From the NCBI GenBank assembly GCA_020055645.1, contig CM034549.1, positions 11,869,501 through 11,933,500 of the forward strand: 64,000 bases of DNA. Reading direction: 5' to 3'. Both the position numbers and the translations under genes were made by a program. The DNA comes from Tomocerus qinae. Lineage: Eukaryota > Arthropoda > Collembola > Entomobryomorpha > Tomoceridae. Under the pieces are notes generated by a model. It made no database searches. It was not told the origin of the DNA and worked only from the letters and a program-made list of their open reading frames with translations. This document shows positions 19,248 through 44,904 of the stretch, piece after piece (within the stretch, counting starts at the first letter, position 1; each line of letters opens with the position of its first letter).

Positions 19248-21508
19248 TTATTATGATTTCTGCCAAACAATTTTGGTAGATATTATGACTCGGAATACTA
19301 TAAATAGTAACAATAGTATAGACAACAAAAATGAACGCTCAATTTAGAGAATATCTACAAAAATAGCAAAAAATCAAGAAACTGATATGGTTTTACAGAA
19401 TTTTAGCAACATATTCACTGATGAAAAAAATCGTTGAAGAGTAATGATTAATTTAAACTATTAGAAAATCATTTCCCTTAACACTTTCAATATAGATTTC
19501 TCCAGAACATTTTCATGCTTATGATAGACCCGTTTAGCCACTTCCTGAAAAGATCTTTTCTCTGAGATCATTAGTTCGCCATACAAATACACTCCCATTG
19601 CAGGATGATCTAGCAAAAACTTTTCAATAATTAACTGCCTTTTTAGGTCTTTGATTTTAATAATGATTTCGCATAGACAGTGCAAAACTTCAGGAGTAAA
19701 ATTCTGTATGGTTTCAAAAGTCAGTCCTAAGGATTTAAACAAAGTACGACAGAATGTTTTAGTAAATGTCTCTCCAGCTTGTAATGCTATGTTTTCCAGT
19801 ACATAAACCAATTCCACGCAGGATAACGATGGGATATCTTTGAAATTGTTCTCCTCAAAACATTTTATTAAAATCTGAATTAATTTTCTCAATCGATTTT
19901 CACATTTAGGGAAGAGTTGAATCAGTTCTTTATTATCCTTTGACAATTCGAACTTATTATTTTCGAAATTTAAGAGCAATTGGACCGATTTGTATGGCTC
20001 TTCCAAAACGGCACTATTTAACCATTTGCTCTGTAGGTTTTCTACACCCACAAAGTTCTTGTTCATTAGTAAAGACGCGAAGAAATAACTTTGAAAATAA
20101 TTTAGGAACATTTGCGACGTCACTAACTGGCCATGATATTGTGTAACGTAGTTTTTGAGAAAAATAGCAAAGTTTTCGTCACCTCCAACCAGTCCACTCA
20201 AGTATTTGAGGAAAAAATAGCCTTTCAAGTAATGTATTTGCTTGAATTGCTTTTCAGGTACGAGAGCATTTTTAACACATTTTTCTTCCTTTTCCGTGGG
20301 ACTAAGAACTTGTCCGCTGTCCTGCTCCGTGTTATTCATTTCGTTCTGCAGATTCATTAGTCTCAAAATAGATCCGATACTTAATTGCTCGTCAATGTCA
20401 TTTTCACACAGTTTTTGCTGGGTGTCATTTTCCAATGAGAGTAAAGTTTTTTTGTACAAAATATCTTCCATGAAAGTAGCAAATCCTTCGCTGAGCCATT
20501 CTTCAGTCCAGTCTAAAGCTCCAATCAAGAGCCCAAACCACGAATGAGAAATTTCATGAGCAATTCGAGAACAATAAGAGTATCTCTGCAGGAATCCTCC
20601 GGCTCGACACCCATAAAATACGCTCGGTGAGAAGAAAATCATATTAGGATTAGCCATACCCATGCATGGAAAACTTTTAGGCATTATTACTAAATCCAGT
20701 CTTGAAAAGGGATGAGGTCCCAAAATAGCAAATGCTGAAGACAACAAATTGGTAATTACAATTGAGATATCTTTAACTAAAGGTGGAGTAACAACATTGT
20801 CACTGAAGGAAAACAGTCTTACAGGAATTAAATCTTCATTTGCCGCAGTCTGATGGTCTGAAGAAAGTCGGCAGGGATAGACTTCGTGATTTTTACAGGA
20901 ATTTATGCCTACATCTATTGCACTGTGTGGAAGATCACTACGGATGCTAACCAGATCTTCAATTCCATTAAAAATAGTCCCTACAGCAATAGCAAATGTA
21001 GACATCGGTAAGACCATCGAACATTGGAAATAATACGTTGATAAATCAGGAAAATCACAGCTGATAGACTGAAAAAGACAACCAGGTTCGTCTGAAGCTA
21101 ATAAAGCTGTGTAATTTTTGAAGGAATCTAATTCAACGAAGCATTCCCATGTTGACATAGCGGAAGGAGGTTCTTGACATGGAAATAAACCTCGATTATT
21201 TACTGGAGACGCTGGTGTATAAACACAACATTCTGCATTGTCTGAAATCCGCCAGTGCAAAGAAGGAGTTGAAGGCAAAGTCTCATACTGTATGCGGACA
21301 ATTGTTTGTTTGTTTGAATTTCGTTTTCTGGCCACCCGTGAATATTCAATGACCACTTTGTTGTTACAAACTTTAATTCATTTAATTCCGGTGCAGTGAA
21401 CCAATTGATTTTCTTCGGTTTAATATTCTCCTGGTTTTCAGAATCAACCGCACATTTCAGACATGAAACATTGTGAACTTTTATAGAACAACAGTCTAAT
21501 ATCACTTT
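19248..21508 (-). repeat. Left copy of 2.25-kb direct repeat flanking the retroelement
   Basis: This segment repeats at 24191-26443. By eye the two are identical base for base except for one difference: the left copy has TTGTTTGTTT (21306-21315) where the right copy has CG, a net gain of 8 bases. The left boundary is at TTATTATGATTTC and the right boundary at ATATCACTTT. Confidence 0.9.
19461..21508 (-). pseudogene. AOPEP: Truncated copy of aminopeptidase O
   Basis: This copy lacks the first 93 codons of the intact gene at 24404-26722, because homology stops at 21508 where the retroelement side begins. It also carries a net +8-base change near 21310 that shifts the frame. The downstream frame, 19461 to about 21310, remains open and still contains the M1 zinc site (HEISH with the later WLSEGFA glutamate). 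An apparent Met at 21356 lies in the shifted frame and gives a short non-native N-terminus. No promoter is evident. It is best read as a non-functional fragment, unless the arrangement is an assembly artefact. Confidence 0.8.
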
Positions 21509-21589
21509 TGACGGAAAAATTCTCATCATCCCCCCAAGCACACTGCTGGAACTGATAACTGACAAGTTGCCATTAGTAGAAATGACAGT

Positions 21590-23677
21590 ATGACATCTGA
21601 CTCTTACACAACTGCAACAAGTGATAATGATTCACAAATATTTTATACTCCCAATACAACCTTAAATACAACTAAAAAGAGAAATAGGAGATTTTATAAC
21701 ATGAATAGAGTTTTTGATGTGAAAGAATTGAATGGTGAAAATTACAATAGATTATACAAATTATTCTGTTCAGTTCGACAAACACAAAACACAATACACA
21801 ATCTGACTACAATTAAAATTCCTGATAAGTTTAAAGCACTGTTAAGTTTAGGTCTTAAATTCTCTGTACCTACCTTTCCTAATTTTAATAACATAAAGAA
21901 AGCTTTTTGTGAAGGTATTCGAAAAGTAGCTTGGAATGCTTACTTCTCAATTTTAAGTGACACGAGCGAAACGAATAACGATTTACAAAAATTTATAATT
22001 AATTGTAAAAAACACAAACAAAAGGTAGAACGAACAGAAAAGGTACATTGCGAGGACGAATATGTTATGTTCCCTGACAAAAATCTGTATGACAATCTTA
22101 TTAGCGAAATCAAAAAATGTTCATCTAGGCCTAAGCTATTACCCCCTAATTTATGTAAAGACTTTAGTAAATACTGTAACGATAATAATATTATAGTGAA
22201 AGAGTCGGACAAAAATGCAGGTATTTGTTTCATGGAAGAGGGTCTATACGATCAAGAAATATTTAATCAATTATATGATGAAAATGTATATTACCCGAGT
22301 ACTGAAATGCATTACAATTTAGATGTACTTACATTTAGGGATCAGGTTTGTATTCTAGAGAAAACATTTCCACCCAATTGTAAATTATCAAAATTAATAC
22401 CAAATAATTATAAACCTGCGAATTTCTATATTTTACCAAAGATCCATAAGCCATTTGAAATATTTCCAAAGGGGAGACCCATCAGTTCTACTATTTACAC
22501 AGTCAATAGAAACATAAGTAAACTACTGGATTTATTTTTGCAACCTATAATGAATTTTGTACCCGATTTAATTCTAGACACTACGCATTTGCTAATTTTA
22601 CTTGATAATTTAACGCTAGATTCTAATCGTACCTACAAACTAATCACTATAGACATTGTATCTTTATATACAAATCTACCACTTAAGTCATGTAAAACTC
22701 ACTGCTGTAATATGTATGAGGAATTTCATAACAAAATTAATGTACCTTTTGATATCACCACCATACAGATGCGTAAACTTTTAGATTTAAGCTTAGATCA
22801 TAGTTTTGTAAAGTATAAAAGGGAATATTTCTACCAATTTAAAGGTATCCAGATGGGAGGATCTAGCTCTCCTTCTATCGCAAATATTACTGTATACAAG
22901 GAAATTGAAAATTTGTTTACTGATAAGAAGGAGATAACTTTTCGTAAACGATTTCTAGACGATATTTTTATAATTTTGGATACCACAGATTTATCTAATC
23001 CAAATGAATGGTTATCTGATACACTTACACATAATTTCCTAGAATTTACCTTTGATATCCAGGATACACGTACATCATTTCTAGATTTAGACATTACTTT
23101 AACATCCGACAATACTATAATAACAAAACTGTATCGTAAACCGATGTCAAAAGCCCAACCACTCCACTACTATTCGAACCACAGTAAAAGTTTACTTAAA
23201 TCCATCCCATATGCACAAGGCTTAAGGGTAATAAGAACATGTAGTAGTTTTACTGACAGAAATGATGAATTAGATAATTTATTCCATAAATTCAAATTGC
23301 GAATGTACCCCGATAACCTATTAGAGGAAACACGTTATAAATTGAACACGATCAATAGATCGGAATTATTAACACCTAAAAAACATCTTTTAATTACGAA
23401 CTTATCTATTCATAACCCGGAAATTTTATCAAAGTTAGAAATTACACCTGTAAATGTAATTAAGTACGATCAGAGTTTTAATAACACCTGTTATTTTGTC
23501 ATGCCTTTTTATAAGAATATTAAGAATTATAAACGTATTATATTAGATACTATAATGAAAGAGTCTCTTAAATGTGAAAATTATGAATATAAATTAGCTG
23601 TAAATAGCCTACAGATAATTGTCTCATTCTCCAAAGTAAATGGTCTCACTACTATGATTGTCAAGGATTACACTTAG
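21590..23677 (+). CDS. Reverse transcriptase of a Penelope-like element
   Basis: An uninterrupted 695-residue frame. Reverse-transcriptase marks: motif A ITIDIVSLYTNLP (Asp near residue 355), motif B GIQMGGSSSPSIANI (about 419-433), and motif C FLDDIFII (about 456-463, with the Asp pair). The later KLYRKP and HYYSNHSKSLLKSIPYAQGL blocks are typical of Penelope-like reverse transcriptases, as is the upstream SDKNAGICFM block. No GIY-YIG endonuclease is recognisable in the last 100 residues or before the polymerase, so it may belong to an endonuclease-lacking group or be a shortened copy. The intact frame suggests a recent insertion. Assignment to Penelope-like elements over other arthropod reverse transcriptases is by motif only. 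Confidence 0.75.
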   Translation: MTSDSYTTATSDNDSQIFYTPNTTLNTTKKRNRRFYNMNRVFDVKELNGENYNRLYKLFCSVRQTQNTIHNLTTIKIPDKFKALLSLGLKFSVPTFPNFNNIKKAFCEGIRKVAWNAYFSILSDTSETNNDLQKFIINCKKHKQKVERTEKVHCEDEYVMFPDKNLYDNLISEIKKCSSRPKLLPPNLCKDFSKYCNDNNIIVKESDKNAGICFMEEGLYDQEIFNQLYDENVYYPSTEMHYNLDVLTFRDQVCILEKTFPPNCKLSKLIPNNYKPANFYILPKIHKPFEIFPKGRPISSTIYTVNRNISKLLDLFLQPIMNFVPDLILDTTHLLILLDNLTLDSNRTYKLITIDIVSLYTNLPLKSCKTHCCNMYEEFHNKINVPFDITTIQMRKLLDLSLDHSFVKYKREYFYQFKGIQMGGSSSPSIANITVYKEIENLFTDKKEITFRKRFLDDIFIILDTTDLSNPNEWLSDTLTHNFLEFTFDIQDTRTSFLDLDITLTSDNTIITKLYRKPMSKAQPLHYYSNHSKSLLKSIPYAQGLRVIRTCSSFTDRNDELDNLFHKFKLRMYPDNLLEETRYKLNTINRSELLTPKKHLLITNLSIHNPEILSKLEITPVNVIKYDQSFNNTCYFVMPFYKNIKNYKRIILDTIMKESLKCENYEYKLAVNSLQIIVSFSKVNGLTTMIVKDYT

Positions 23678-24042
23678 TGATACATGATATGATTTTTGTT
23701 TATAGCTTTTATGCAATTGTCCCGCTTAATTACTTACCAATGTGAAGACAAATCAGGATGTTTGTAAGTCTAAACCTGTATTGAATTAAAATGTGAACTA
23801 AATTCTAAATTCTAAATTAACTGATGTAAGGATCTCAAAATTACTAACTACTCTTACCTCCAACATTGTTAATTTACATAATAAGGTTAGTGTTATGAGT
23901 TTTTCTACTAATGGTAATAATACATAAAAAATACAAAGTACAAGTGTAGCATATGACTGATTCGATGTTCTGATTGAACAATTATTATTCATTTATAAAA
24001 TCCTCATTTTTAATTTATGTATTATAATGTAATTATTTTCAA

Positions 24043-24077
24043 CAGTCTGATGATGCCCTATGCGAAATCGATTACTG
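24043..24077 (+). ncRNA. Hammerhead-ribozyme-like motif in retroelement 3' region
   Basis: The order fits a type I hammerhead: stem I strand CAGT (24043-24046), core CTGATGA (24047-24053), a short stem II region (24054-24063), GAA (24064-24066), stem III ATCGAT (24067-24072), cleavage-position T (24073), and the second stem I strand ACTG (24074-24077). Stem I pairs fully over 4 bases. Stem III is self-complementary, a form that works best as a dimer and is known from Penelope-like hammerheads. Stem II is weak: only two G-C pairs with an unpaired U, so activity is doubtful. Confidence 0.5.
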
Positions 24078-24190
24078 AATAAATTAAAAAAGACATGTTG
24101 ATGACTGGTTGAGTAAACAAGCTGTCGGGATTTGGATTGATTTCGGTTTTCATCTTTCATTTATTTATCTAAGGAAAACTAAAAAGCATA

Positions 24191-26443
24191 TTATTATGAT
24201 TTCTGCCAAACAATTTTGGTAGATATTATGACTCGGAATACTATAAATAGTAACAATAGTATAGACAACAAAAATGAACGCTCAATTTAGAGAATATCTA
24301 CAAAAATAGCAAAAAATCAAGAAACTGATATGGTTTTACAGAATTTTAGCAACATATTCACTGATGAAAAAAATCGTTGAAGAGTAATGATTAATTTAAA
24401 CTATTAGAAAATCATTTCCCTTAACACTTTCAATATAGATTTCTCCAGAACATTTTCATGCTTATGATAGACCCGTTTAGCCACTTCCTGAAAAGATCTT
24501 TTCTCTGAGATCATTAGTTCGCCATACAAATACACTCCCATTGCAGGATGATCTAGCAAAAACTTTTCAATAATTAACTGCCTTTTTAGGTCTTTGATTT
24601 TAATAATGATTTCGCATAGACAGTGCAAAACTTCAGGAGTAAAATTCTGTATGGTTTCAAAAGTCAGTCCTAAGGATTTAAACAAAGTACGACAGAATGT
24701 TTTAGTAAATGTCTCTCCAGCTTGTAATGCTATGTTTTCCAGTACATAAACCAATTCCACGCAGGATAACGATGGGATATCTTTGAAATTGTTCTCCTCA
24801 AAACATTTTATTAAAATCTGAATTAATTTTCTCAATCGATTTTCACATTTAGGGAAGAGTTGAATCAGTTCTTTATTATCCTTTGACAATTCGAACTTAT
24901 TATTTTCGAAATTTAAGAGCAATTGGACCGATTTGTATGGCTCTTCCAAAACGGCACTATTTAACCATTTGCTCTGTAGGTTTTCTACACCCACAAAGTT
25001 CTTGTTCATTAGTAAAGACGCGAAGAAATAACTTTGAAAATAATTTAGGAACATTTGCGACGTCACTAACTGGCCATGATATTGTGTAACGTAGTTTTTG
25101 AGAAAAATAGCAAAGTTTTCGTCACCTCCAACCAGTCCACTCAAGTATTTGAGGAAAAAATAGCCTTTCAAGTAATGTATTTGCTTGAATTGCTTTTCAG
25201 GTACGAGAGCATTTTTAACACATTTTTCTTCCTTTTCCGTGGGACTAAGAACTTGTCCGCTGTCCTGCTCCGTGTTATTCATTTCGTTCTGCAGATTCAT
25301 TAGTCTCAAAATAGATCCGATACTTAATTGCTCGTCAATGTCATTTTCACACAGTTTTTGCTGGGTGTCATTTTCCAATGAGAGTAAAGTTTTTTTGTAC
25401 AAAATATCTTCCATGAAAGTAGCAAATCCTTCGCTGAGCCATTCTTCAGTCCAGTCTAAAGCTCCAATCAAGAGCCCAAACCACGAATGAGAAATTTCAT
25501 GAGCAATTCGAGAACAATAAGAGTATCTCTGCAGGAATCCTCCGGCTCGACACCCATAAAATACGCTCGGTGAGAAGAAAATCATATTAGGATTAGCCAT
25601 ACCCATGCATGGAAAACTTTTAGGCATTATTACTAAATCCAGTCTTGAAAAGGGATGAGGTCCCAAAATAGCAAATGCTGAAGACAACAAATTGGTAATT
25701 ACAATTGAGATATCTTTAACTAAAGGTGGAGTAACAACATTGTCACTGAAGGAAAACAGTCTTACAGGAATTAAATCTTCATTTGCCGCAGTCTGATGGT
25801 CTGAAGAAAGTCGGCAGGGATAGACTTCGTGATTTTTACAGGAATTTATGCCTACATCTATTGCACTGTGTGGAAGATCACTACGGATGCTAACCAGATC
25901 TTCAATTCCATTAAAAATAGTCCCTACAGCAATAGCAAATGTAGACATCGGTAAGACCATCGAACATTGGAAATAATACGTTGATAAATCAGGAAAATCA
26001 CAGCTGATAGACTGAAAAAGACAACCAGGTTCGTCTGAAGCTAATAAAGCTGTGTAATTTTTGAAGGAATCTAATTCAACGAAGCATTCCCATGTTGACA
26101 TAGCGGAAGGAGGTTCTTGACATGGAAATAAACCTCGATTATTTACTGGAGACGCTGGTGTATAAACACAACATTCTGCATTGTCTGAAATCCGCCAGTG
26201 CAAAGAAGGAGTTGAAGGCAAAGTCTCATACTGTATGCGGACAATTGTCGGAATTTCGTTTTCTGGCCACCCGTGAATATTCAATGACCACTTTGTTGTT
26301 ACAAACTTTAATTCATTTAATTCCGGTGCAGTGAACCAATTGATTTTCTTCGGTTTAATATTCTCCTGGTTTTCAGAATCAACCGCACATTTCAGACATG
26401 AAACATTGTGAACTTTTATAGAACAACAGTCTAATATCACTTT
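24191..26443 (-). repeat. Right copy of 2.25-kb direct repeat flanking the retroelement
   Basis: Matches 19248-21508. This copy is contiguous with the 5' part of the aminopeptidase gene (26444 onward). It includes about 213 bases downstream of the stop codon, so the intact gene's 3' UTR is duplicated too. Confidence 0.9.
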
Positions 26444-31397: not shown

Positions 31398-34300
31398 ATG
31401 GCTTCAAATCAACTTATGAGTGAAGACGATGTACGCCAATATTTTATTCAGAACGGAGGAATCGTTAGAAATACGGACATCGTCACATATTTTAGGACTT
31501 ATTTGTCAAATCCTGCAATTCGTGGTACGTACATTTATTTTTCATCATACATTCTAAATATATCTAGGTCATTAAGAAAATTTTTATCATGGTTGAATAA
31601 TTAACTTAATTATTCGGAAATTCTAGATGAAGCAAGAATCCTTTTCAAAACCTATGTGAATAAACTTGCAACTGTCAAAGTAGAAAACGTAAGTTTAAAA
31701 GCTATAAATATTTGTAATTTCAAATTTCAATCAGATTGGATACAAATATTTGTTTCTACAATTGGATCTGAAACACCATTTTGGAATTAATGAATTTTGA
31801 GAACATTGAATTTAAACCGCTTTAAAAATAGGGTATCAAAAAGTTACTAATAACATTGTTGCTTTATCGTTTTGTATTTTTTGTTGTGTTTTTGTTTTGA
31901 ATACGCCTGTTTAAATTGTATATTTTTGAATTTCTCATTTTGCTGCATTGTCAGAATAACAGCACTTTTATTTTTTATTCGGGTATGAAATAGTGTTTGG
32001 TTCAGATTTTTGCACATTGCATTACCAATTACTAACTCCCAATCGCAACTTTTGAGAATCCTAATGAGTTTCCTTTTTTGCTTAAAAATTTCTCCGCTCA
32101 GGGTGACAAATTTTTAGTGCTCAAACGACAGTATTTCCCACCAATCGATGGGAACGGAAACAACGGCCTTGGCCTTCCTTCTCAATCTCAATTAGGACTA
32201 CCATTGTATCCGTCCTCTTCCTCCTATTCCAATTCTCAATTGAGTTCCCATTTATCTTCCACATCTCTTCATAGTTTACCAAACAGCAACACCAATAGTA
32301 GTTATTCATCGGGTTCAGGACCAACATCTTACAATGCTCCTCCTCCATACGGGTACCCGCCACCACCACCTCCTGGAGGAAATTCCCACCCTAGTTACCT
32401 TCGATCGAATTCTCATCCTCAACCTCAATATTATGGGTCCCAGTTTTCATTAAGTTCCAATTATGCGGATCCGTACCCAACGAATACAAATAATTATGGT
32501 GCTTCCTCTTTGTCACAACAATCGGGAAATTACTACCCACAGCAGCAACAAGCCCCTGTAAGTTCAAATCCTCAACAGTTCTACCAAAGTCAATCAAATT
32601 CAAACTATTCATCGTACCCCCCTCCACCAATTCATCATCAAAATTCCCAAGTTCCCAATTACCACCAGTACAATAACAACAGCGGTGCCACAGCTGACTA
32701 TCCTTTGGAATACGGACTCCCTCCTGTTCCATCATCAAATCATCCCGGTACTCCTCCAAGAAGATTTGTGTCCCCTCAAAATTCAGTTGGCAGTTTAAGT
32801 AGCAGTGGAAGTAGTCTTTCTCGAATTCCTCCTCCTTACAGACCACCTCCTCCTGCTCCCTATGGAAGTCCGCCTTCTGCTCCTTTTCCTCCTCCTGGAA
32901 TATCTAATGGTCGAAGAAATTCTGTGAGTTCTGGCATCACTTCTGCAGTCAATTCCAGTTCTACTGGAGGATCGCCTTATCGTGGAGGACCCTCTTCTTA
33001 TTATACCAACCATACTAATGCTATTAATAATGAACCAACATCTCCTTCATCAATGTTCCAATATCATCGTAGCTTATCAGGTTTTGTTTTGTTGCATTTT
33101 TTTTTATTTTTGCTTCTTTTTCTTTACAATTTGAGATTATGCAAATTTCCTCGTTAAATTCAATGTTGTATCACGAACGACCATTTCTCTGCGTGCTTTT
33201 GTCTTGTTTTAAATTAACTAAACGTGCATTTAAAGTGCTTTTACCTCCTGGCATGGTATACTTAAACAGCATGAGAATGTCTAATGAAATGAGTGTACCG
33301 GTACGCTGATTCATTCCCTTTTCGTTTGTGACAACCGTGGGAATTTACATAATTTACCAAGTTTCCTTCTCATGATCTTTCACTTTTGCCCTTGACAGTT
33401 TCTCTATAACCTAACGCACGATAGATTATAATGTTCTGCACTTTCAAGCACTACTATTTTAACACTGTTAATTATATAAACCATAATATTAGGGTAGTTA
33501 GGCTCGTACGAATACCTTATATAGGTATATTTATGTTATAGACTAATAGACACAGATAATTTAAAGGATAGGTGTGCAAATGAAATGTTTAGTAGTGGAA
33601 CGAATTGACAATAAACTGCCGTAACGATTGCACGATTGGAAGGTGACAATTTTGTCGCCAGCTACCTAAGTAAATGCAATTACTTAATGGAACATTAACT
33701 TTAAAACAACACGAATTCCTTTCACCAGTTTCACTGTATTAATTAGGGAGAACTACAACCATCTCGCCGTGTGTGGTTTTCTATGGTGTCTGATTTTTGT
33801 TGCTATTTGAAAAGAGTTTATCATGAATGAAAATGAAACAAAGTAACTTTTATTTTGCTAAAAGTTCATTACAGCATAGCTTTTATTTTCCCTTGATATG
33901 CATATTTTATGGCCTATTCTGGTATCAAAAGTGTCCTGATAAAAAGGTTGTATCTATGTAGACATCTTTTATAGTGTAGGCGCATATGATTAGGTATATT
34001 ACTAGAGTGTGCTGTTGTTCTCGTTCTCATAAGGTTACGTAAAAATGTCTGCATGCCTACAAGAGGAAGATAAGATTACAATTCAAATAGTGCAAAGAAC
34101 TATTCAGTATTAATGGCAAATCATGTCACGGTTTGTGCATTAAGCTTAAGCATCTATTTAAATTGCCTAAGAACGATTTGCCAATGCATCGTCTTTCTTT
34201 TAAAGTTCATTGTCATCATAAAAATGCGGAGAGGGCATCCATATCGATTACAATAGTTCTCTTTTTTCTACAAAATTTGAAGATCGTTAACAACTCCGTA

Positions 34301-37300
34301 ATTTGTTGAAGTTTTTTGCAAATTGGCAATGAAGATAACTGCCAAAATCAATTTTACAATTATTAGTAAATAGAATTTGGTAATATCCTTGGGCAAAATA
34401 AATTGTGAAGGCTTATGAAGGTAGAAAACTTGTGAATCGCATTCTTTGTCGTTGAAAGGCACTTTGTTTTCTTTGATGGCAGATTGTGCGTTTTCTGTTA
34501 ATTATATTATGTATACTATTGATGTTATTTTACTATTGATTCAATTGTACACACAAGTTAAATTGACTGATAAATCCTCACTTTCTGTGGGTTGCCACAA
34601 AGTAAATAAAAAAGCCTCAATTAAAATTTTTGGTTTTGGAACAAACTGCCTAACCGCAGATTAAAGGGTTGGGACAAGTTTGTTTGTATCTGCGGCCTAA
34701 TGCAAAGGAAAGTTTAAACCGGCCAGGCAAGACTAAAATGATGCCCGTAATGGCATTACTTAAGATAAAACTAGCAGGTAAACGATATGTGCTTGTTTAC
34801 ATTTTGTGAGTTGTCTGTCTGAAGATGAGACTGAATAGCTGTTTAAATATGCAATTGATAGTGGAAAGCTATACGTGTAATGGATACTACTACGACAAGA
34901 AAAGCAGGAACAGTTATGTAAATGAAACCCCAAAAATGCAGATAAAAAATGTGGTTAGCTATGCATACTATTAATTATTTCGCTATGATAATACTAATCT
35001 TCTCTTTCGTGTACAATTTATTAAATTTAAGTGCCTACTACTAAGATTATCTTATTCACATTCACAACTTTAGGTTAAAGCCAGAATGATGTTGACATTA
35101 GTGATGCACGTTGCTTATCGAGTGTGCATCCTACCAGTTTTTGTTTGATTTAGGATTTAGGTATAGCTATTTATTATTAAAATTGCATTAGAACAGCAAT
35201 ACAATTTGTTAAATGAGAACTACTATCTAAGGGGAGGGTATATCCTGAATCCTTGCATAACCAACCTGTCAGTGCACTAAAGCTGTTTTGTTGTCAAAAT
35301 TTATTTGACTCTTTGTACTCTGTCGAGTAAACATTGATTTACGGTGTACGTGAACTGAAGGAAAGTAGTAATAATGTTCCATTGCATTTAAAAGATTTTT
35401 AAGTATATAGCTATATGTATAATCTATGAAATTATCGTGAATATAATTTGTGTGTTCTGTGCAGGCAGAGCAATGTAATTCCTAGCACTTATATGCCAAC
35501 AACTGTTTGCAATGTGCTTTACCTTTACCTTGAGTTCGCCAACTGCAAATCGTGCATAATATTTGTTTCTTATAGGATTTACATAATATAGAAGAGTTAA
35601 ACTTGGCCTTAGGGCAGAAATAAAGGATGCTGAGATGAGATGACGATATCTCACTTGTTCGTTTTTTCCCTCTTGTCCTATTCAACTATTTTTGTGGATG
35701 CTTCAGACAGCATTTAAAATTTAAATCTCTGAATATAAACCATCACATCATCTTGTAAGCCACAAGTGTTAAAACAAAGGTTTGACATTGAACAAGTCAT
35801 TCATAATCATGAAATCTAGGTTATTGAATTATTCTGCTTAGATGTGATGTATTCTGGTTTTCATCTGCTCTTTATTATTGACGTTGGTTGCTTTATGAGA
35901 TTACTTGGCTAGATGTGTGTGACAGTCACTCCAAATTAACCTCTATATATGCATTTTGTATGCGTAGTAGTTAATGGTAGTGGGTCGGGTGCCATTAAGA
36001 GTGCAGTTGGGGTTGCAAGTTTGGAGGTTGATGTTTTAAATAATTTGGGATGCCATCAATTATCAAAGGTTGTATAGAGAGGTATAACAAAGCTTTGTAC
36101 ACCTTTGCAAAAGTGTACAGGTGCAAAATACTCTGCACACAATAAAATTGCAAGTTTATTTTTAATTATAGCCCCACCGATATAAATGCACCTTATTTAT
36201 CACCTTATTGATGTTATTAAAATTCATGATGTAGTAGTATATATAAACTAAAGATCTTTATACTATTTACTGCTTATAATAATTTATTCATGATTCAGAA
36301 TCGAATTAGATGTAGTATGCTGAACTATTTAATATGTCAGTACGAAGGTCATTGAAGCCCACGTATTTACTACATGCTCATGAACATCCCTACTACTAGT
36401 TACGTGATAATTTATTGCAATTGACATTTGAATGTATAGTAGTTTAAATGTATAATAATAAATTAGTTAGTTTTTTGATGGTGGATTTAAACTTAGGAGA
36501 TATTATACAGACAGAAAAATATTTTTGTCTCATTCATACTATTTGTCATATTATTGTAGAATTTAATTAGTTGCATAACATTTAAGTGCACATAGTATAG
36601 TGTAGGAAAGTATTTTACATATTTGTTTAATTGCCTGACTTCCCTTGCTTCTGGCAGCCAAGCCAAAATGCATTTTGTTATTTTAGAAGCGGTGATTGTA
36701 TTAGAAAAGTTAAACTAGACTAGAAACATGAAGTTAACCCTTGCTAATTAAATGTATTGATGATTGATGATAGCTAGTATCTTTTGATATTCCATTTTGT
36801 AATGCCTTTTGAAAGAGATGCCAATTTTAGCCATTGCACATAGAAAAATAAATTATGTTCTTTTATGTAATGGAGAGACCAATGCAACAGCTCAAACATA
36901 TGTCGTTCTAGTTTTGTGGTATAGGTCATAGGTAAGCTATGCCTTTTTACCTATGTATAATTATCCGGGCATAGACTTTTGCAATATCCTTTATACCGTT
37001 ATGTTAAAGAGATAGAGCTACGCTACAGATAGTTAATTTTGTTAAATTACATTATTGGGTCCGGTCGAGGGAAAAATGTGTAACGTTTTACACAAATTAT
37101 TGCTGACTGACTTTTATGGTGCTTTGCCCAAAGGATTTTGTAGTTAAAGCCGAAATAAGCCATTAAAAGGCAAGAGTTTATTTTGAAATACCTATAAAAT
37201 AGATTGGTAAGAAGGATTTTTATAGCGAGCTATCTTTATATGCAGAACACAAGCTAGTACAAATTACAATTTGTGTTCTGTCTATCACATCTGATATTGT

Positions 37301-40300
37301 GTGTTAAAAAACTGTTATTTTGTATTAAGTGATACCTATAGGAACTTGTTAGCTTTTTTATGTATATGTAGGTCCTGTTTACAGTAAGAATAATTGCATA
37401 GGAATAAAGCTGTGGTAAAGTGAAGGCACAAGTTATCGAGCTAAATAAAAAGTGTGAACTATGAATCGAAATAAAAGTAGAAAATATTCTCTCTCGGGTC
37501 TCTTGGTCTGAATTATGTAATGTCTAATAATTGCCATCAAGTTTATTTATTTGCTTTGATTCGACGCGATAGATTTTCATCGTTAGCAAATCTGTATAGG
37601 TAACAATAGGTGTCTACATACAGAAAGTACTTTCTGTGTAACCATGATTAGTATATTTGTACAGTAAGAGTAAGGTAGGATGATGTATTACAAGAATATT
37701 ATAAGCATTAGGAAAAACAACTCGTGATTTGACTACAGGCGAGTAAAGAATTAGTAATTTCTGTTGTTACCTTTACCTATAGGCGTAACTCTGTTAAGTT
37801 AGGTAATGTAATTTTATAGTTATGTGTATAGGTACGTTTATTTCATTCATTTGAGTCCTTTAGCGATGTTATGCTATCTTATGTGATAGACTAAGAGGTA
37901 GAATATGTTTTGTGAGTAATTTACAGAGCCGCTGAATCGTATCCTGTTCGCTATTGCATCTTTATTGTAATAAGTATGAAAAATACAATCATAATATCAT
38001 ATCACCTTAAATGTTAGGTATATACATACTTAGTAGTCACATAATACACACAAACATCAGATGGATTTACCATAATGTAGTTATATACAGCGATTAATGC
38101 ATCCACGTATCTCCTAAGTGCAATTCTGGCAGCTTTTCGCATGTATAGACAATTTAGCGTTACATGAACAAGAATAATTTCTGCTGCTTACCTAAATGAC
38201 TTAACATCTATGAAATGTTTAGTGGTTCTTATTGTTAGACTGCCAGCATAACAAAACAGTTAGTCTCCTTCGTTCTTTAATTTTACTTGATCTGACTCGT
38301 TGGTCTCTATTTTCTTGTTCTCGCTGGCCTGTATGACTTGTCCTGCATTGTCATACTGAGCTACACAAGAAACTCAATATTACTCTTTAGTACTAAAATT
38401 ATACTATGTGGTTTTCTTTCTCTAATCTCTAATCTATCTTTTAGGTGCTTGCATAATAATAGAGTTAAATTATATAAGACAAAGATCAACTTTATAATTC
38501 AACACGGACTCACTGAGCATAATACTGTTGACGAAAGTGCTCTGACTAAATTCTATACAATTTAAACAGTTTCTAATTTAAATGATAACCACGTTCAGAA
38601 CACAGTGACTATACTAAACGTCTTAAAAATATAACAGCCTTCACATTTCTGCAGTGTTTGTGGTTTAAAACTAATTTTAAAACGTGTCTTTTGATGGAGT
38701 GTATCCGTGAGACAACATTTAATTCTGTTATAAGTAAGATTATTTTCCCTAAATGCTAATCCATGTCTGTGCAATTTATTTCTCTGCCATTCACTCTACT
38801 CAATTTTTTCAGGGCAATGTTAGTATTCGTTTAGTCTCATTCTGTTTGCAGCATCTGTCGACTTTGTTTGTTGTTGCATTTGTAAAATGCGATTTTATTT
38901 ATTTGTCCATACAGATAAGAATAGTATTCCGTGTTTTTGTGTATACTTTTGTATATTATGTAGTGGTGTCCTTTTGTCCAACCGGTGTGGCCCAACAAAG
39001 TTTTAATTTTGACTTGTTACGCAAATTAATATTTGACATGTAATGGAGAAATAATAGCCTTTGCCATGTAATATGTCTGTCCAACTCTTCTCCATGTCAT
39101 ATTGGGAATGCAAATAAATAGATAAAGGCCTGTCTGGTTAAAGTATGTTAAAGATAGTGAATCACGTTAAGGTCAGGACGATATACATAGCAGTGACACC
39201 ATAACTCGTGGATATCTAATCTACAATAGTGTCCGTAGTACTATATATGGTTATATTATTAAGCGCATTGCATTGATTTAAATAAAATCGGTATTATATT
39301 ATGTAGATAGATTCTTGTATACGTGCAGTACCCAGAAAATAGTATGATTAGGTATGTTGAAAACATTTGCAAAGATTAGTATACGTTTCAATTTCAAGCC
39401 TGAGTAATTTAATTGCTATTTTCTGTTCTATGCGAGAGGTAAAATTGCTAGTTTTCTAGGGTTAGAAACAAATAAAGTGCTTTTCTACTCTTTTCTATTA
39501 TTCTGGACTATTCTTAATCTAAACATTTTGTTCCAAATTGTGATTAATTTTGTTTTATTTGTTTTACAGTGAATGGTTTATCGAGTGCGGTGAATAGTTC
39601 AGTAACAGCAGGAGGAGAGACGAAGTATTTTGAAAATTACGGTTCGCCACCGAGTTCTGGAGGAAATCCTCCTCCACCAGTTCCACCACGTGCTAAGCGT
39701 TCTTCAGTAGAGAGATCTCCAAGTGCAGTAGTGACCCGCAGTAGTAGTAGCACGACTGGATCAAATAGTACAAGTAGAAGATCTAGAAACACGAATACAA
39801 ATAGTATGATGGAAGAGGAACGATTGAGCGTTGCTGACCGGAGAGAAAACCGACACGGTGACAATAATATTAGTCGGAGAAGTAGAAGTAATAGTTTACA
39901 CGGAACTGTAGATTTAATTAAAGAAAATGGCGGGGGACATGAACGTGAACGAAGTTTGTCTGTGGGGTTGGGTATAGATAATGACAATGAAAAAGAAAAT
40001 ATAAATGTAATGATGGGGGGCAGTGGCAGTTTTAGCAGTGGTAGTTTGAATAGAATAAATTCAAATGGTAATTACAATCAACATGAAAATAGTTTTGAGG
40101 AGGGGGATGGGAGTGTTAGCAATGAAAATGGAAATTCGGAAGTGGAGCAGAAAATCAGCGTTAAGGAGCGGATGCAAAAGTTTAATCGCATTGCGTCCGA
40201 GAGTGAGCTCACAGCTGCGTCTAAAATGCCGTCTGCAAGAAATCGCAAAGAAATTGCTGTCAAGGTACACTTTGCCGATATTATAGTCAAAACTTTTAAC

Positions 40301-43300
40301 GAACTCTATACTTACATTTTTTGTTGTCTTAATTTTTATCTTGACACATTACAGTAATTGCAGTAATGCTACGCGAGTAGATCGTGTTGCGCACTTATCT
40401 ATTGTTCTATTATTTCGTTGTGGCTTTAACAAGCGAAAGTTTTTGCATGTACCAAATCACTAATAATGTTGTTATGTCTATTTCAGCACGAGTCAGTGGA
40501 CTACGATACGGCCTCTCTGTCATCCGTAAGTTTTCAGAATTTTTGGCATTTTTAAATCATTTTTTACTTGCAAGTAGACATAGTAAGTAAAATGTTCTGA
40601 ATTTTTGGTTTACTGTGTTTTTGCTTTAATATCAAATGGCAATACCCATATTGATACATATATCCGCATTTTTAAATTGAGTTTTGCAATTGCATGATTG
40701 TTTAAGTATCCGTAAATTAAATTTTATCATACATATTACTCAGTCACAATATAAATGTGAACTGCAAAATTTTCTTGAAAAAGAAAGTTGTAGTTTTTGC
40801 ATTTTAAAACTAACTTTAAAATTGTAGTGGGTCTGAATTTAAGTTTGTGCTGCATGGTTTGGATTTTAACTAACGTGTGCTATTAAATTTCATGGAAATA
40901 GTTTGGCTATGGATTTTCCCACGTACAGTTTGAACCAAGAGCTAAGGAATGGTTATTGAAAGCTGCAAAATGCGATTATCATGCGCTGAACAAAATGGCT
41001 CAAGAAAATTCAAGTTTAGTTAAACGAAAGGACATGAATGTAAGTAAATACTAAAATGTTTTTACGTACTAGGAGCTTCTGTTTCCTATTAGAAATTTGC
41101 TATTTTGTGAGTATGTAAACTAAAGTAATTTATTGTTTTTTATCATTTATGATTTCGTCTGGCTCGGTTGGGAAATTTTAGGGCGTAAGTGCATTTGCAA
41201 TATTTAAATTTCTTAATGATTTATTGTAAGTATTTATTTTTATAAAGTTTTTGTATTTTTTTAAATCTCGAATGGATTTGGTCTATACAATTCAATGGAT
41301 TATTCAGTATGTAAGTGAATTTCTAATTGCTTTCTATGAAATTTATTTAATATCTTAATGAAATTATATTTTATCTCGTAATTTTATTTTCAAGACTGCA
41401 CTTCATTGGGCATGTAAAGCTGGCCATGTTGAGTTAGTAAAATTATTAGCTGGAACGTTCAAATCTGATGTCAATGCAAAATCGGTAATTTCAATTTTTA
41501 TGTTTTCTTTAGAATTCATTATTTCCAATGATAAATTATTATGCTGGTCAATTACAAAAGCAAAAATAATGATATTATATCTTGTGCATTGTTTTCGTTA
41601 TCTTCATTTCCGCTCTGGTGGATTACTACTTTCTTCTACTCTACTCATTTGACTGCTGTCTACTCTGGATTCACTCTTCTGTAGAATGGAGTAAGTTAAC
41701 CAGACACGGTTGTTTTATCTAATTTGTGATTAAAAATTCCTACGCTACTGCAAACCACTTACTTAATAAGCATTATAAAAGATTGTACCTCAACTTAAAT
41801 TGTTTTATAACCCATAATATAAGTAGATATAATTAATAGAACCTATTACAGAAATTCCTAGCTTGCTTGTAACACTATACGAAGAAATCATTTATTCGCT
41901 CAACTGAACGATTATGATAAATAACTCCAATTATTTGTTTTGCAGGGATATACACCATTACATTTAAGTTATCAATTTGCTAGGCAAGATGTGATTGATA
42001 TTCTGACTAAAACGTATAGTAAGTACCACAATAAACTTTATCATTAACCAAAATTACGCTGTTATAAAACTTCCTTGAAACAGTAATCATGTTTTTTGAA
42101 TTCAGCGAATGTGTCGGCTGAACAGGATATTATTATAATAAAATTAATTATTTATTTAGTGTATTGTACCATTGTATACAAAGTAAAATTTTAATTTCCT
42201 GTTGTTATTACTAATTTAGACGCTGACCCAAATGTCAGAGATCATAGTGGGAAGAAGCCAATGCAGTGGCTAGTTCGACAAGACACTGCAGTTTCAATGG
42301 ATACTTTCAAAAGTGAGTCTTTAGCTCCACAGTCCTCCGCCTCCGAGTCGCTTCGTCGCCGCCTCTCAAGCGCTTCCAATTATGCCCACACACTTAATCG
42401 CACTCGCACTAACATTCCGAATCAGTATAAAGAGCAGCCCTCAATCACTATTTCTTTGCCCACTTGTAACACCAATAATTCTGCTGCAGAACAAAATGTT
42501 CCTCAACCCAATGTTCCCCCAAACCCTAAATCTAAGCGTAAACAGATAACTCCAAGAATTGAATTGAAGTCTTACGTGAATCGAAACCCGAGCAATGTTT
42601 CATCTCTAGGAGAAATTAATTATCATGCCAAGCGTCTTCTTCCCACAGTTCCTGCCTCTCCGCCCACTCCCGATCCCAATGCCTCTTCTCAATCTCCATT
42701 AAGTCGTGCTCAGTCCCAATCCACTATATCCATGCACTCCACAGTATCTTCCAACTCAAATCGGTCTTTTATGCGTCAAAGCTCCCGAAATAGCGTATTT
42801 GACGTGGATGATTTTAGACGCAGTTTTCGTCATGGAGTTAGGAAATTACTTAATGGAGCCCCTAAAAAAGAGAGAAATAGTACAATACCCCCACCCTTAA
42901 ATTAAAATCCCATTCTTGTTTTGCAGCAGCTACTTATTCTTTTTACGTGCAGCTGTGTGACATTCTTTAATCATTGTTTACTTTTTAACCACACACTTAC
43001 TGCTTAACTACACATTTTACTCTTACTGGTTTTAAACATTGTGTAACTTTCGGTAGTAACAATTTTCTTCACTACTTACTATTAAACCGACTTGTAACCA
43101 ACTTCTATCTCCTTGGAATGCGGAATGCTACTAATGTAAGTTAATATGCAACTGAACGACCCTAATAACGACTCGGCTATCAATAATAAGGTCCACTTAA
43201 ATAACACTGAATGTGATTTACCATTGCAGGATATAATATGAATGCGAAAAGAAAGACTGCAATGCTCCATTTTAGTAATTAATTGTAATATATATTATAT

Positions 43301-44904
43301 TTGTGTAGATTAGTAGTTTTTGGAATGTTTGGTAGCTCTGTTATAGTATAAATAGGTAACTATTAATCGAACGTTAGTAATTCAGAGTTTAGAAATGTTT
43401 AAGATGCACGAAATACTAGTCCTCTGTTAGTTTTAATTTTATTTTTTGAATAAAACTTGAGTTTGCATGTGTCACTTTTGCTGCTGTTGCTTTAACTTTC
43501 CGTTCTTCCCTGTACTTGATTTGATGTATTTTTTAGTTACAATTTTAAGTAAGAACATTGAGATTGTAAAATCAATGGATGCTGTGCTTGACTTGACGAT
43601 TTGATAATGATTCTCGTGTAGATTACATTTTTACGAGGTTGCGGCGCCGCCGGGACTCGTACTAGCTTCTATAAAGCAACAATTTGTAAATATCAAAATA
43701 TGCCAAATGCCATGCCATTGCCTCTGTAAGCTGCATGACTGTAAATAATGAACAAACAGGTGGGTTGGTCGGTTGGTTCATGGTGAATGGTGAAGGTACA
43801 TTGATTGTCAGGTGAAACATTTTACTGTCACGGGTAAGGATCATTTTTATCTCTTCTACGTCTCTTGTATACTGCTATTACAATACCTACTAAAGTTACG
43901 CCTGAGGAAACATATCTTATTAGTACAACAAATGATATGGAAACTTTTGCACTCTTCTCCTATAGGGACAAATTAACATACAATGAATTGGATCAGTACA
44001 TAATGATAGTACTTATAGAATTGGATGTTGTTCTACTCAATCGTACATATTATATACTCACTCAACCTTCTGTAGCATACACTGTTATTACGTCATTGTA
44101 GTGTTAAGCCCCTAATCTGTAATTTACGTGCAAGTGTGTCATTACAAACATTTACTCAGAATACCAATTTTCGTCTTTTCTCCACACATGTTATCATTTT
44201 TCTTATACATTTTGTGTAAACTATGTGATATTTTAATCCGAATGCTTTCTGCACAAACGCTGCGTAATTTTACACGATTTATTCTATTCACTTTTCATCT
44301 TTCACTAATTTTTGTACTCCTACTTTAAGTGTTACTATTATTTGTATCCAGATTTCTATGTAGGGCATTAACATTTTTGTCAATTTAATTTTTGGAGAAA
44401 AATTAATGAATTGATGTTTTGATATTTAGAATTAAAAGAAAAGAGAAGAAGTACGGAACAACAGAGGGAACGTGATAGCAATAGTTTTCTACGGATAGGA
44501 TCTTTAAATGTAAGAGTTAAGAAAACGACGGAAGCTTTTGGAAACTTTTTAGGCAAATCTAATTCCTCGTCAAATATAGAAAGAATGTTACATAAAACTT
44601 GGGGATCTGCAGATAATATCCCAGAGGCTGAAGTAAGACAAATGAATAATTCGAAAATTGATAGAGAATTTTCTGTGAATAACAATATTTTATTTTTATG
44701 AAGTGTGCCGAGAAAGACAAGCAAGTGATGCCACCTCCTACTGGACCAACCGTCCCTAGAACACATAGCGTACCAAAATCAGCGAAACGAAGACCTCGGA
44801 GACCTCCATCTCAACATGATTCACTAACGATCAAAGAAACACGATCTGATTCGGATTCTGACACAGCCTGTGGTTTTGGCACAGATTGGAAAAGTCCCAC
44901 TTGA
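31398..44904 (+). CDS. sowah: Sosondowah (SOWAH) ankyrin-repeat protein, long isoform
   Basis: Exons: 31398-31524, 31627-31688, 32102-33080, 39570-40264, 40487-40525, 40929-41039, microexons 41182-41184 and 41308-41310, 41395-41484, 41946-42018, 42220-42312, 44430-44632 and 44704-44904; 892 residues. The N-terminus has the SOWAH winged-helix-like domain (DVRQYFIQNGGIVRNTDIV, then KTYVNKLATVKVENGDKFLV). A long disordered Ser/Pro/Tyr/Asn region follows (exon 3), then a Ser/Arg-rich region containing PPPPVPPRAKR, a likely SH3-binding stretch. FEPRAKEWLLKAAKCDY leads into two ankyrin repeats (TALHWACKAGHVELVKLL; GYTPLHLSYQF). The tail is basic and Ser-rich. The family is conserved in animals, with a neuronal/sleep-related role reported in flies. 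The 6.5-kb intron 33081-39569 holds nothing I recognise. An alternative end is given separately. Confidence 0.85.
33081..39569. other. Long intron of sosondowah
   Basis: A 6.5-kb AT-rich intron. Short frames on either strand have no family resemblance. No clear transposon or RNA gene was seen. Confidence 0.5.
41182..41184 (+). other. sowah: Candidate 3-base microexon GGC (Gly) in sosondowah
   Basis: TTTTAG|GGC|GTAAGTG: a pyrimidine-rich acceptor and a full-consensus donor enclose exactly one codon. Flanking introns would be 142 and 123 bases. It is phase 0, between DMN and the next microexon. Confidence 0.55.
41308..41310 (+). other. sowah: Candidate 3-base microexon TAT (Tyr) in sosondowah
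   Basis: ATTCAG|TAT|GTAAGTG: acceptor and full-consensus donor around one codon, 84 bases before the exon encoding TALHWACKAGH. With the preceding GGC it supplies the Gly-Tyr that normally begins this ankyrin motif. Confidence 0.55.
42220..42905 (+). CDS. sowah: Alternative terminal exon of sosondowah (short 3' isoform)
   Basis: If the donor at 42313 (AAAA|GTGAGT) is not used, the frame runs on for 198 codons to a TAA at 42903-42905. The extension is Ser/Pro/Asn-rich and ends in a basic NSTIPPPLN tail; total length would be 955 residues. An AATAAA at 43449-43454 could end this transcript. Codon usage in the extension looks coding (long open frame with Ser/Arg-rich motifs such as SRAQSQSTISMHS). 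Which form dominates cannot be told from DNA. Confidence 0.6.
43449..43454 (+). promoter_or_regulatory. Poly(A) signal for the short sosondowah isoform
   Basis: AATAAA in the right position to end the transcript that reads through to the TAA at 42905. Confidence 0.4.

Follow-up and report, generated by a model that had tools for sequence, protein, structure and literature searches.

Two consecutive one-codon microexons may provide the first ankyrin repeat of a sowah-like gene with its Gly-Tyr

The 355 nt that separate two coding exons of a sowah-like gene would, in the explanation preferred here, comprise three introns arranged around two one-codon exons, GGC and TAT, whose codons give the first ankyrin repeat its Gly-Tyr. 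Both codons are very likely to be included by splicing, and probably in succession. The initial annotation had proposed two consecutive 3-base microexons restoring this Gly-Tyr, and the proposal is supported by the uniqueness of the sites and by their order, strand, frame and codons, and further by the sizes of the introns, the domain score and the GYT of the second repeat, which stands behind an equivalent intron. The sites and their frame, order and uniqueness are read from the sequence itself, as is their fit to the domain; the inclusion of both codons in the main mRNA form and their stepwise splicing are what we infer from the genomic DNA.

Results

The window, i.e. the whole 64-kb stretch of DNA analysed, was examined on both strands where stated, and the genome searches covered 334 Mb in 115 contigs. 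The sowah-like gene (Table 1) has an alternative 3' end at 44904, also in a hand-made model. Two C-termini are thus candidates, the one by read-through to the stop at 42905 and the other by use of a GTGAGT donor at 42313, which would give a C-terminus composed of 42220-42312, 44430-44632 and 44704-44904; both versions stay open. The 39-nt exon 40487-40525, directly upstream of exon 40929-41039, is another short exon of the gene. Elsewhere in the window, within 19609-26331, a 704-aa ORF (21563-23674), which we take to be reverse-transcriptase-like and, by eye, Penelope-like, is flanked by two stretches that have ORF translations in common (starting at 19609/24552, 19910/24853 and 21161/26104) and are 4,943 bases apart.

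The name sosondowah (sowah) follows the initial annotation and is assumed here from a presumed likeness of the N-terminal exons and of the alternative C-terminal exon, and the likeness of the encoded N-terminus to the SOWAH winged-helix domain is presumed in the same way. The N-terminal exons gave no match in Pfam and none in the PDB. Ankyrin repeats, which SOWAH proteins have in their C-terminal part, are present in that part of the encoded protein (Pfam Ank, Ank_2 and others). Linkage of sowah with Iroquois genes has been reported for Drosophila (PMC12311624).

Table 1. Coordinates of the sowah-like gene and of the features in and around the 355-nt gap
Feature	Position	Strand	Remarks
Sowah-like gene	31398-42905	+	Hand-made model from ORFs; frame open across all junctions, GT-AG introns
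Coding exons 1-6, long-C-terminus model	31398-31524, 31627-31688, 32102-33080, 39570-40264, 40487-40525, 40929-41039	+	
Coding exons 7-11, long-C-terminus model	41182-41184, 41308-41310, 41395-41484, 41946-42018, 42220-42905	+	
Exon before first microexon	40929-41039	+	Ends ...KRKDMN, AAT, then GTAAGT
Intron 1 of the gap	41040-41181	+	142 nt, GTAAGT...TTTTAG
Putative microexon GGC (Gly)	41182-41184	+	TTTTAG/GGC/GTAAGT; YAG-NNN-GTAAGT match
Intron 2 of the gap	41185-41307	+	123 nt, GTAAGT...TTCAG
Putative microexon TAT (Tyr)	41308-41310	+	TTCAG/TAT/GTAAGT; YAG-NNN-GTAAGT match
Intron 3 of the gap	41311-41394	+	84 nt, GTAAGT...TTTTCAAG; next exon opens with ACT at 41395
Exon after microexons	41395-41484	+	TALHWACKAGHVELVKLLAGTFKSDVNAKS; Pfam Ank; begins TALHWACKAGH
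Second ankyrin repeat exon	41946-42018	+	Starts GGATATACA = G-Y-T, right behind a phase 0 intron

The coordinates of exons and microexons, and the distance of 355 nt between the exon ending at 41039 and that starting at 41395, were re-read from the sequence and agree with the initial annotation. The gap begins with GTAAGT and ends with CAAG. When 41039 is joined directly to 41395, ...KRKDMN runs into TALHWACKAGH and, as had been noted, no Gly-X stands ahead of T-A-L-H; GGC followed by TAT, in this order, on the forward strand and in frame, gives K-D-M-N-G-Y-T-A-L-H-W-A, with the Gly-Tyr that had been described. All three implied introns are of phase 0. The GYTPLH of the second repeat does indeed lie in an ordinary exon (41946-42018). 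A microexon is taken here as an exon of at most 30 nt that is spliced into mRNA. AG and GT directly flank both 3-nt segments, and the preservation of frame and the fit of the residues to the domain, which are usual for microexons and not required of them, are found for GGC and for TAT. The motif GTAAGT occurs four times in the 355-nt gap, compared to 35 times on the whole forward strand of the window; the extra copy at 41226, in intron 2, ends none of the AG/1-6 nt/GT candidates and has no close upstream acceptor.

Other ways of filling the gap were enumerated as chains of every AG/1-6 nt/GT segment whose start keeps a distance of 45 nt or more from both ends of the gap. Four such segments exist, namely TAT at 41112 (GAG acceptor, GTAAAC donor), GGC at 41182, a 5-nt segment at 41248 and TAT at 41308. 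Three chains adding 6 nt of exon are possible (YG, YY and GY), of which only GY places the Gly as in G-X-T-A-L-H. No in-frame extension of either flanking exon within 60 nt supplies Gly-X. With the exon length widened, eight YAG/1-30 nt/GT candidates are found in the gap; among the rejected ones is a segment of 14 nt (41093-41106), which has a GTGAGT donor and looks usable, and which would break the frame. Comparison of the introns did not show that they arose from one another by duplication (p = 0.052 for the best pair, 0.61 and 0.86 for the others).

The pattern YAG-NNN-GTAAGT has two matches in the window, both strands included, and both lie inside the gap. Shuffled windows contained 0.98 such sites on average, and since at least two appeared somewhere in the window in 23 of 100 shuffles, it is the co-location in the gap, not the window total of two, that is unusual. 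When the gap, minus its first 6 nt, was shuffled with its dinucleotides preserved, one or more sites turned up in 252 of 150,604 shuffles, and two in none. Genome-wide, 8,774 sites were counted in 334 Mb (control 6,864), a density at which 0.0046 sites are expected in 349 nt and the probability of at least two is about 1e-5; this is to be multiplied by the chance of GGN as the first codon, 0.026 at the given base composition. With some 100 introns open to inspection, the sites alone would still be expected by chance in only about one case in a thousand; the fit to the coding sequence would lower the odds of a chance origin much further. Pairs of sites spaced by 100-130 nt number 137 in the genome (control 5); among the pairs listed, nearly all are in tandem repeats, and about half a dozen, including GGC/TAT, were judged by eye to lie outside them. 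Such a pair alone is unremarkable across 334 Mb; its position is what counts.

The strength of the splice sites was estimated with a rough matrix built from the 10 other introns of the gene. The initial annotation had credited both sites with a good acceptor and a full GTAAGT donor: the donors stand as described, as does the acceptor of TAT (seventh lowest among the gene's 12 by this rough matrix), but that of GGC, with its purine-rich tract, is the second lowest of the 12 on the same rough scale and was overrated. This weak GGC acceptor counts against the inclusion of both codons. Among the 348 AG-NNN-GT sites of the window, the rough matrix ranks TAT first and GGC 68th.

The fit of the codons to the ankyrin repeat was assessed by Pfam Ank scores, which are 56.2 bits with GY, 52.5 with neither residue, 50.2 with G alone and 52.2 with Y alone, i.e. 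a modest gain of 3.7 bits from both codons together, and none from either codon by itself. Among nine other two-residue inserts, those with Gly first reached 57.1 (GN) and 54.4 bits (GI), and the seven without Gly first scored 49.8-53.4. The test favours a leading Gly and does not discriminate for or against Tyr, as GN scores above GY. Glycine at this position of the ankyrin repeat is structural; the protein keeps it in repeats 2 (GYTP) and 3 (GKKP), and it is found at the equivalent position in 20 of 38 other distinct ankyrin-like motifs, gathered by a six-frame pattern search at 16 of the 59 further loci with ankyrin matches in the genome. In addition, the intron before the first microexon falls at the same point of the repeat as the phase 0 intron before the GYT of repeat 2. 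The frame is no proof of inclusion, because skipping either or both codons also keeps it.

A protein search of the gene's own genome, with E up to 1, revealed no retrocopy or paralogue with the spliced junction: of its 63 matches, four are the sowah-like gene itself, and the 59 elsewhere, being at most 48% identical, are other ankyrin proteins and thus no copies of the junction. No orthologue or relative was found in viral_contigs or genome_contigs. The homothorax gene was sought in the same genome as a positive control: Pfam Meis_PKNOX_N matched four places, and a pattern for the exon that follows the 3-bp exon, built from a presumed peptide, had no matches, an outcome that speaks neither way on the two microexons.

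Discussion

The most likely course of splicing at this locus would start from the recognition of each short intron (142, 123 and 84 nt) across the intron, by intron definition. The exon ending at 41039 would join GGC; the regenerated GGC/GTAAGT donor would then join TAT, and TAT/GTAAGT the next exon, or else the joining steps would run in the reverse order. Since 3 nt leave no room for an acceptor complex alongside U1, the exons would have to be added successively, and the full GTAAGT present at every step would offset the poor exonic pairing to U1. Inclusion is expected to be mostly constitutive, since the Gly is structural. The stronger proposition, that two adjacent codons of the domain core enter the mRNA singly, as consecutive constitutive one-codon exons under obligate stepwise splicing in which each regenerates GTAAGT, is somewhat favoured. 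Read so, and with a similar slight lean in its favour, the arrangement would amount to recursive splicing that proceeds codon by codon through short introns.

The codons GGC and TAT may also be real and yet serve as cassette microexons, included in a tissue-dependent manner so that the insert is GY, G, Y or nothing. This reading overlaps with the preferred one, the codons being spliced in under both, and it is rather unlikely in its own right: the insert-less and one-codon forms score lower as Ank, and the Gly is structural in the family. Nevertheless, both exons keep the frame and the GGC acceptor is weak, and in Drosophila, microexons in an exon-microexon-exon arrangement are reported to be alternatively spliced in 283 of 411 cases (PMC8042270). 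Against this generalization stands the small insect hth exon, which, in the words of its report, 'seems to be a constitutive exon' (PMC7392893).

Other readings dispense with one or both exons. If the sites had arisen by chance, 41039 would be joined directly to 41395 and the first ankyrin repeat would be two residues short; such a join is in frame and still matches Ank at 52.5 bits, and comparable pairs of sites exist elsewhere in the 334 Mb, but the probability of about 1e-5 for two sites, lower still with the codon fit, and the Gly of repeats 2 (GYTP) and 3 (GKKP) make this improbable. Still less credit is given to TAT as the sole exon beside a chance or decoy GGC site, with the product D-M-N-Y-T-A-L-H. 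The top rank of TAT among the 348 AG-NNN-GT sites, as against 68th for GGC, speaks for it, and N-Y does occur at the position in two of the 38 genome motifs; yet the Y-only form lies 4 bits under GY and displaces the D in D-x-x-G from its register, and the GGC site has a full GTAAGT. A special case of these two readings holds the GGC site to be a stray monomer of a satellite with the unit TAGGTTGTAAGTGCATCTTT, and no exon. Seventeen of the 19 bases around GGC match this 20-nt unit, which contains AG-GTT-GTAAGT, but an equal score was reached at two other unrelated places among 4,530 stretches scanned, and the exact 19-mer with GGC occurs a single time in the genome; a satellite origin of GGC is accordingly not supported and appears most improbable. 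The satellite itself, on C1 at about 61.02 Mb, carries AG-GTT-GTAAGT in most of its units and hence forms an array of microexon-like pairs of splice sites.

If the preferred reading of two included one-codon exons is true, the locus would represent an extreme test of the smallest exon that the spliceosome can use, with two such exons in succession, and their location in the core of a domain would render optional linker variation unlikely. A compact minigene of less than 600 nt would then allow a direct test of the sequence in which tiny exons are spliced. Codons of this kind could also be lost silently in annotation, because the neighbouring exons remain in frame when joined directly and their product still passes as an ankyrin protein.

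Single 3-nt exons are already known in insects and mammals, as are consecutive microexons that include one of 3 bp, in human RPS24; two 3-nt exons in a row were not found in the open-licence literature that was searched. According to a 2015 paper, the smallest exons known before it were of 6 nt when constitutive and 3 nt when alternative (PMC4674806). Exon 8 of insect homothorax (hth), as reported, has 3 bp and GTRAGT donors, and in the fly a change of GTAAGT to GTTAGT abolishes it (PMC7392893). It shares with the sowah-like sites the size of one codon and the AG-NNN-GTAAGT layout, it depends on GTAAGT, and its small form is the one described as seemingly constitutive; unlike the sowah-like pair, which is consecutive and inside a folded repeat, it is single and lies between two conserved domains (PMC7392893). 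Exon 4d of bee elavl2 is also an insect exon of 3 nt, for which sequential splicing is required according to its authors, but it is described as alternative, single and situated in an unstructured region (PMC8553928). The microexons of human RPS24 (3, 18 and 22 bp) are consecutive and one of them has 3 bp, whereas they are reported as alternative, at the C-terminus, and not as two 3-nt exons; transcripts with the 3-bp exon have the 22-bp exon and lack the 18-bp exon (PMC12686416).

Plants, in which microexons commonly encode conserved motifs, offer further parallels. For the 1-nt exon of Arabidopsis APC11, intron definition and stepwise (recursive) splicing have been invoked, although this is a plant gene with one single exon of 1 nt (PMC4674806). 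Adjacent microexons of 5 and 12 nt in rice likewise form a tiny pair, but a plant one and larger (PMC8831610). The ratchet points of Drosophila resemble the sowah-like sites in their tandem acceptor and donor, with a donor regenerated per step, and differ in that AG abuts GT, that normally nothing is left in the mRNA, a few expressed RS-exons being the exception, and that mostly long introns are concerned (PMC8605326). In the sowah-like gene, one codon would be left per step, in short introns. With 3 nt, not 0, between AG and GT at both, the GGC and TAT sites are not ratchet points, yet they may work in a ratchet-like way.
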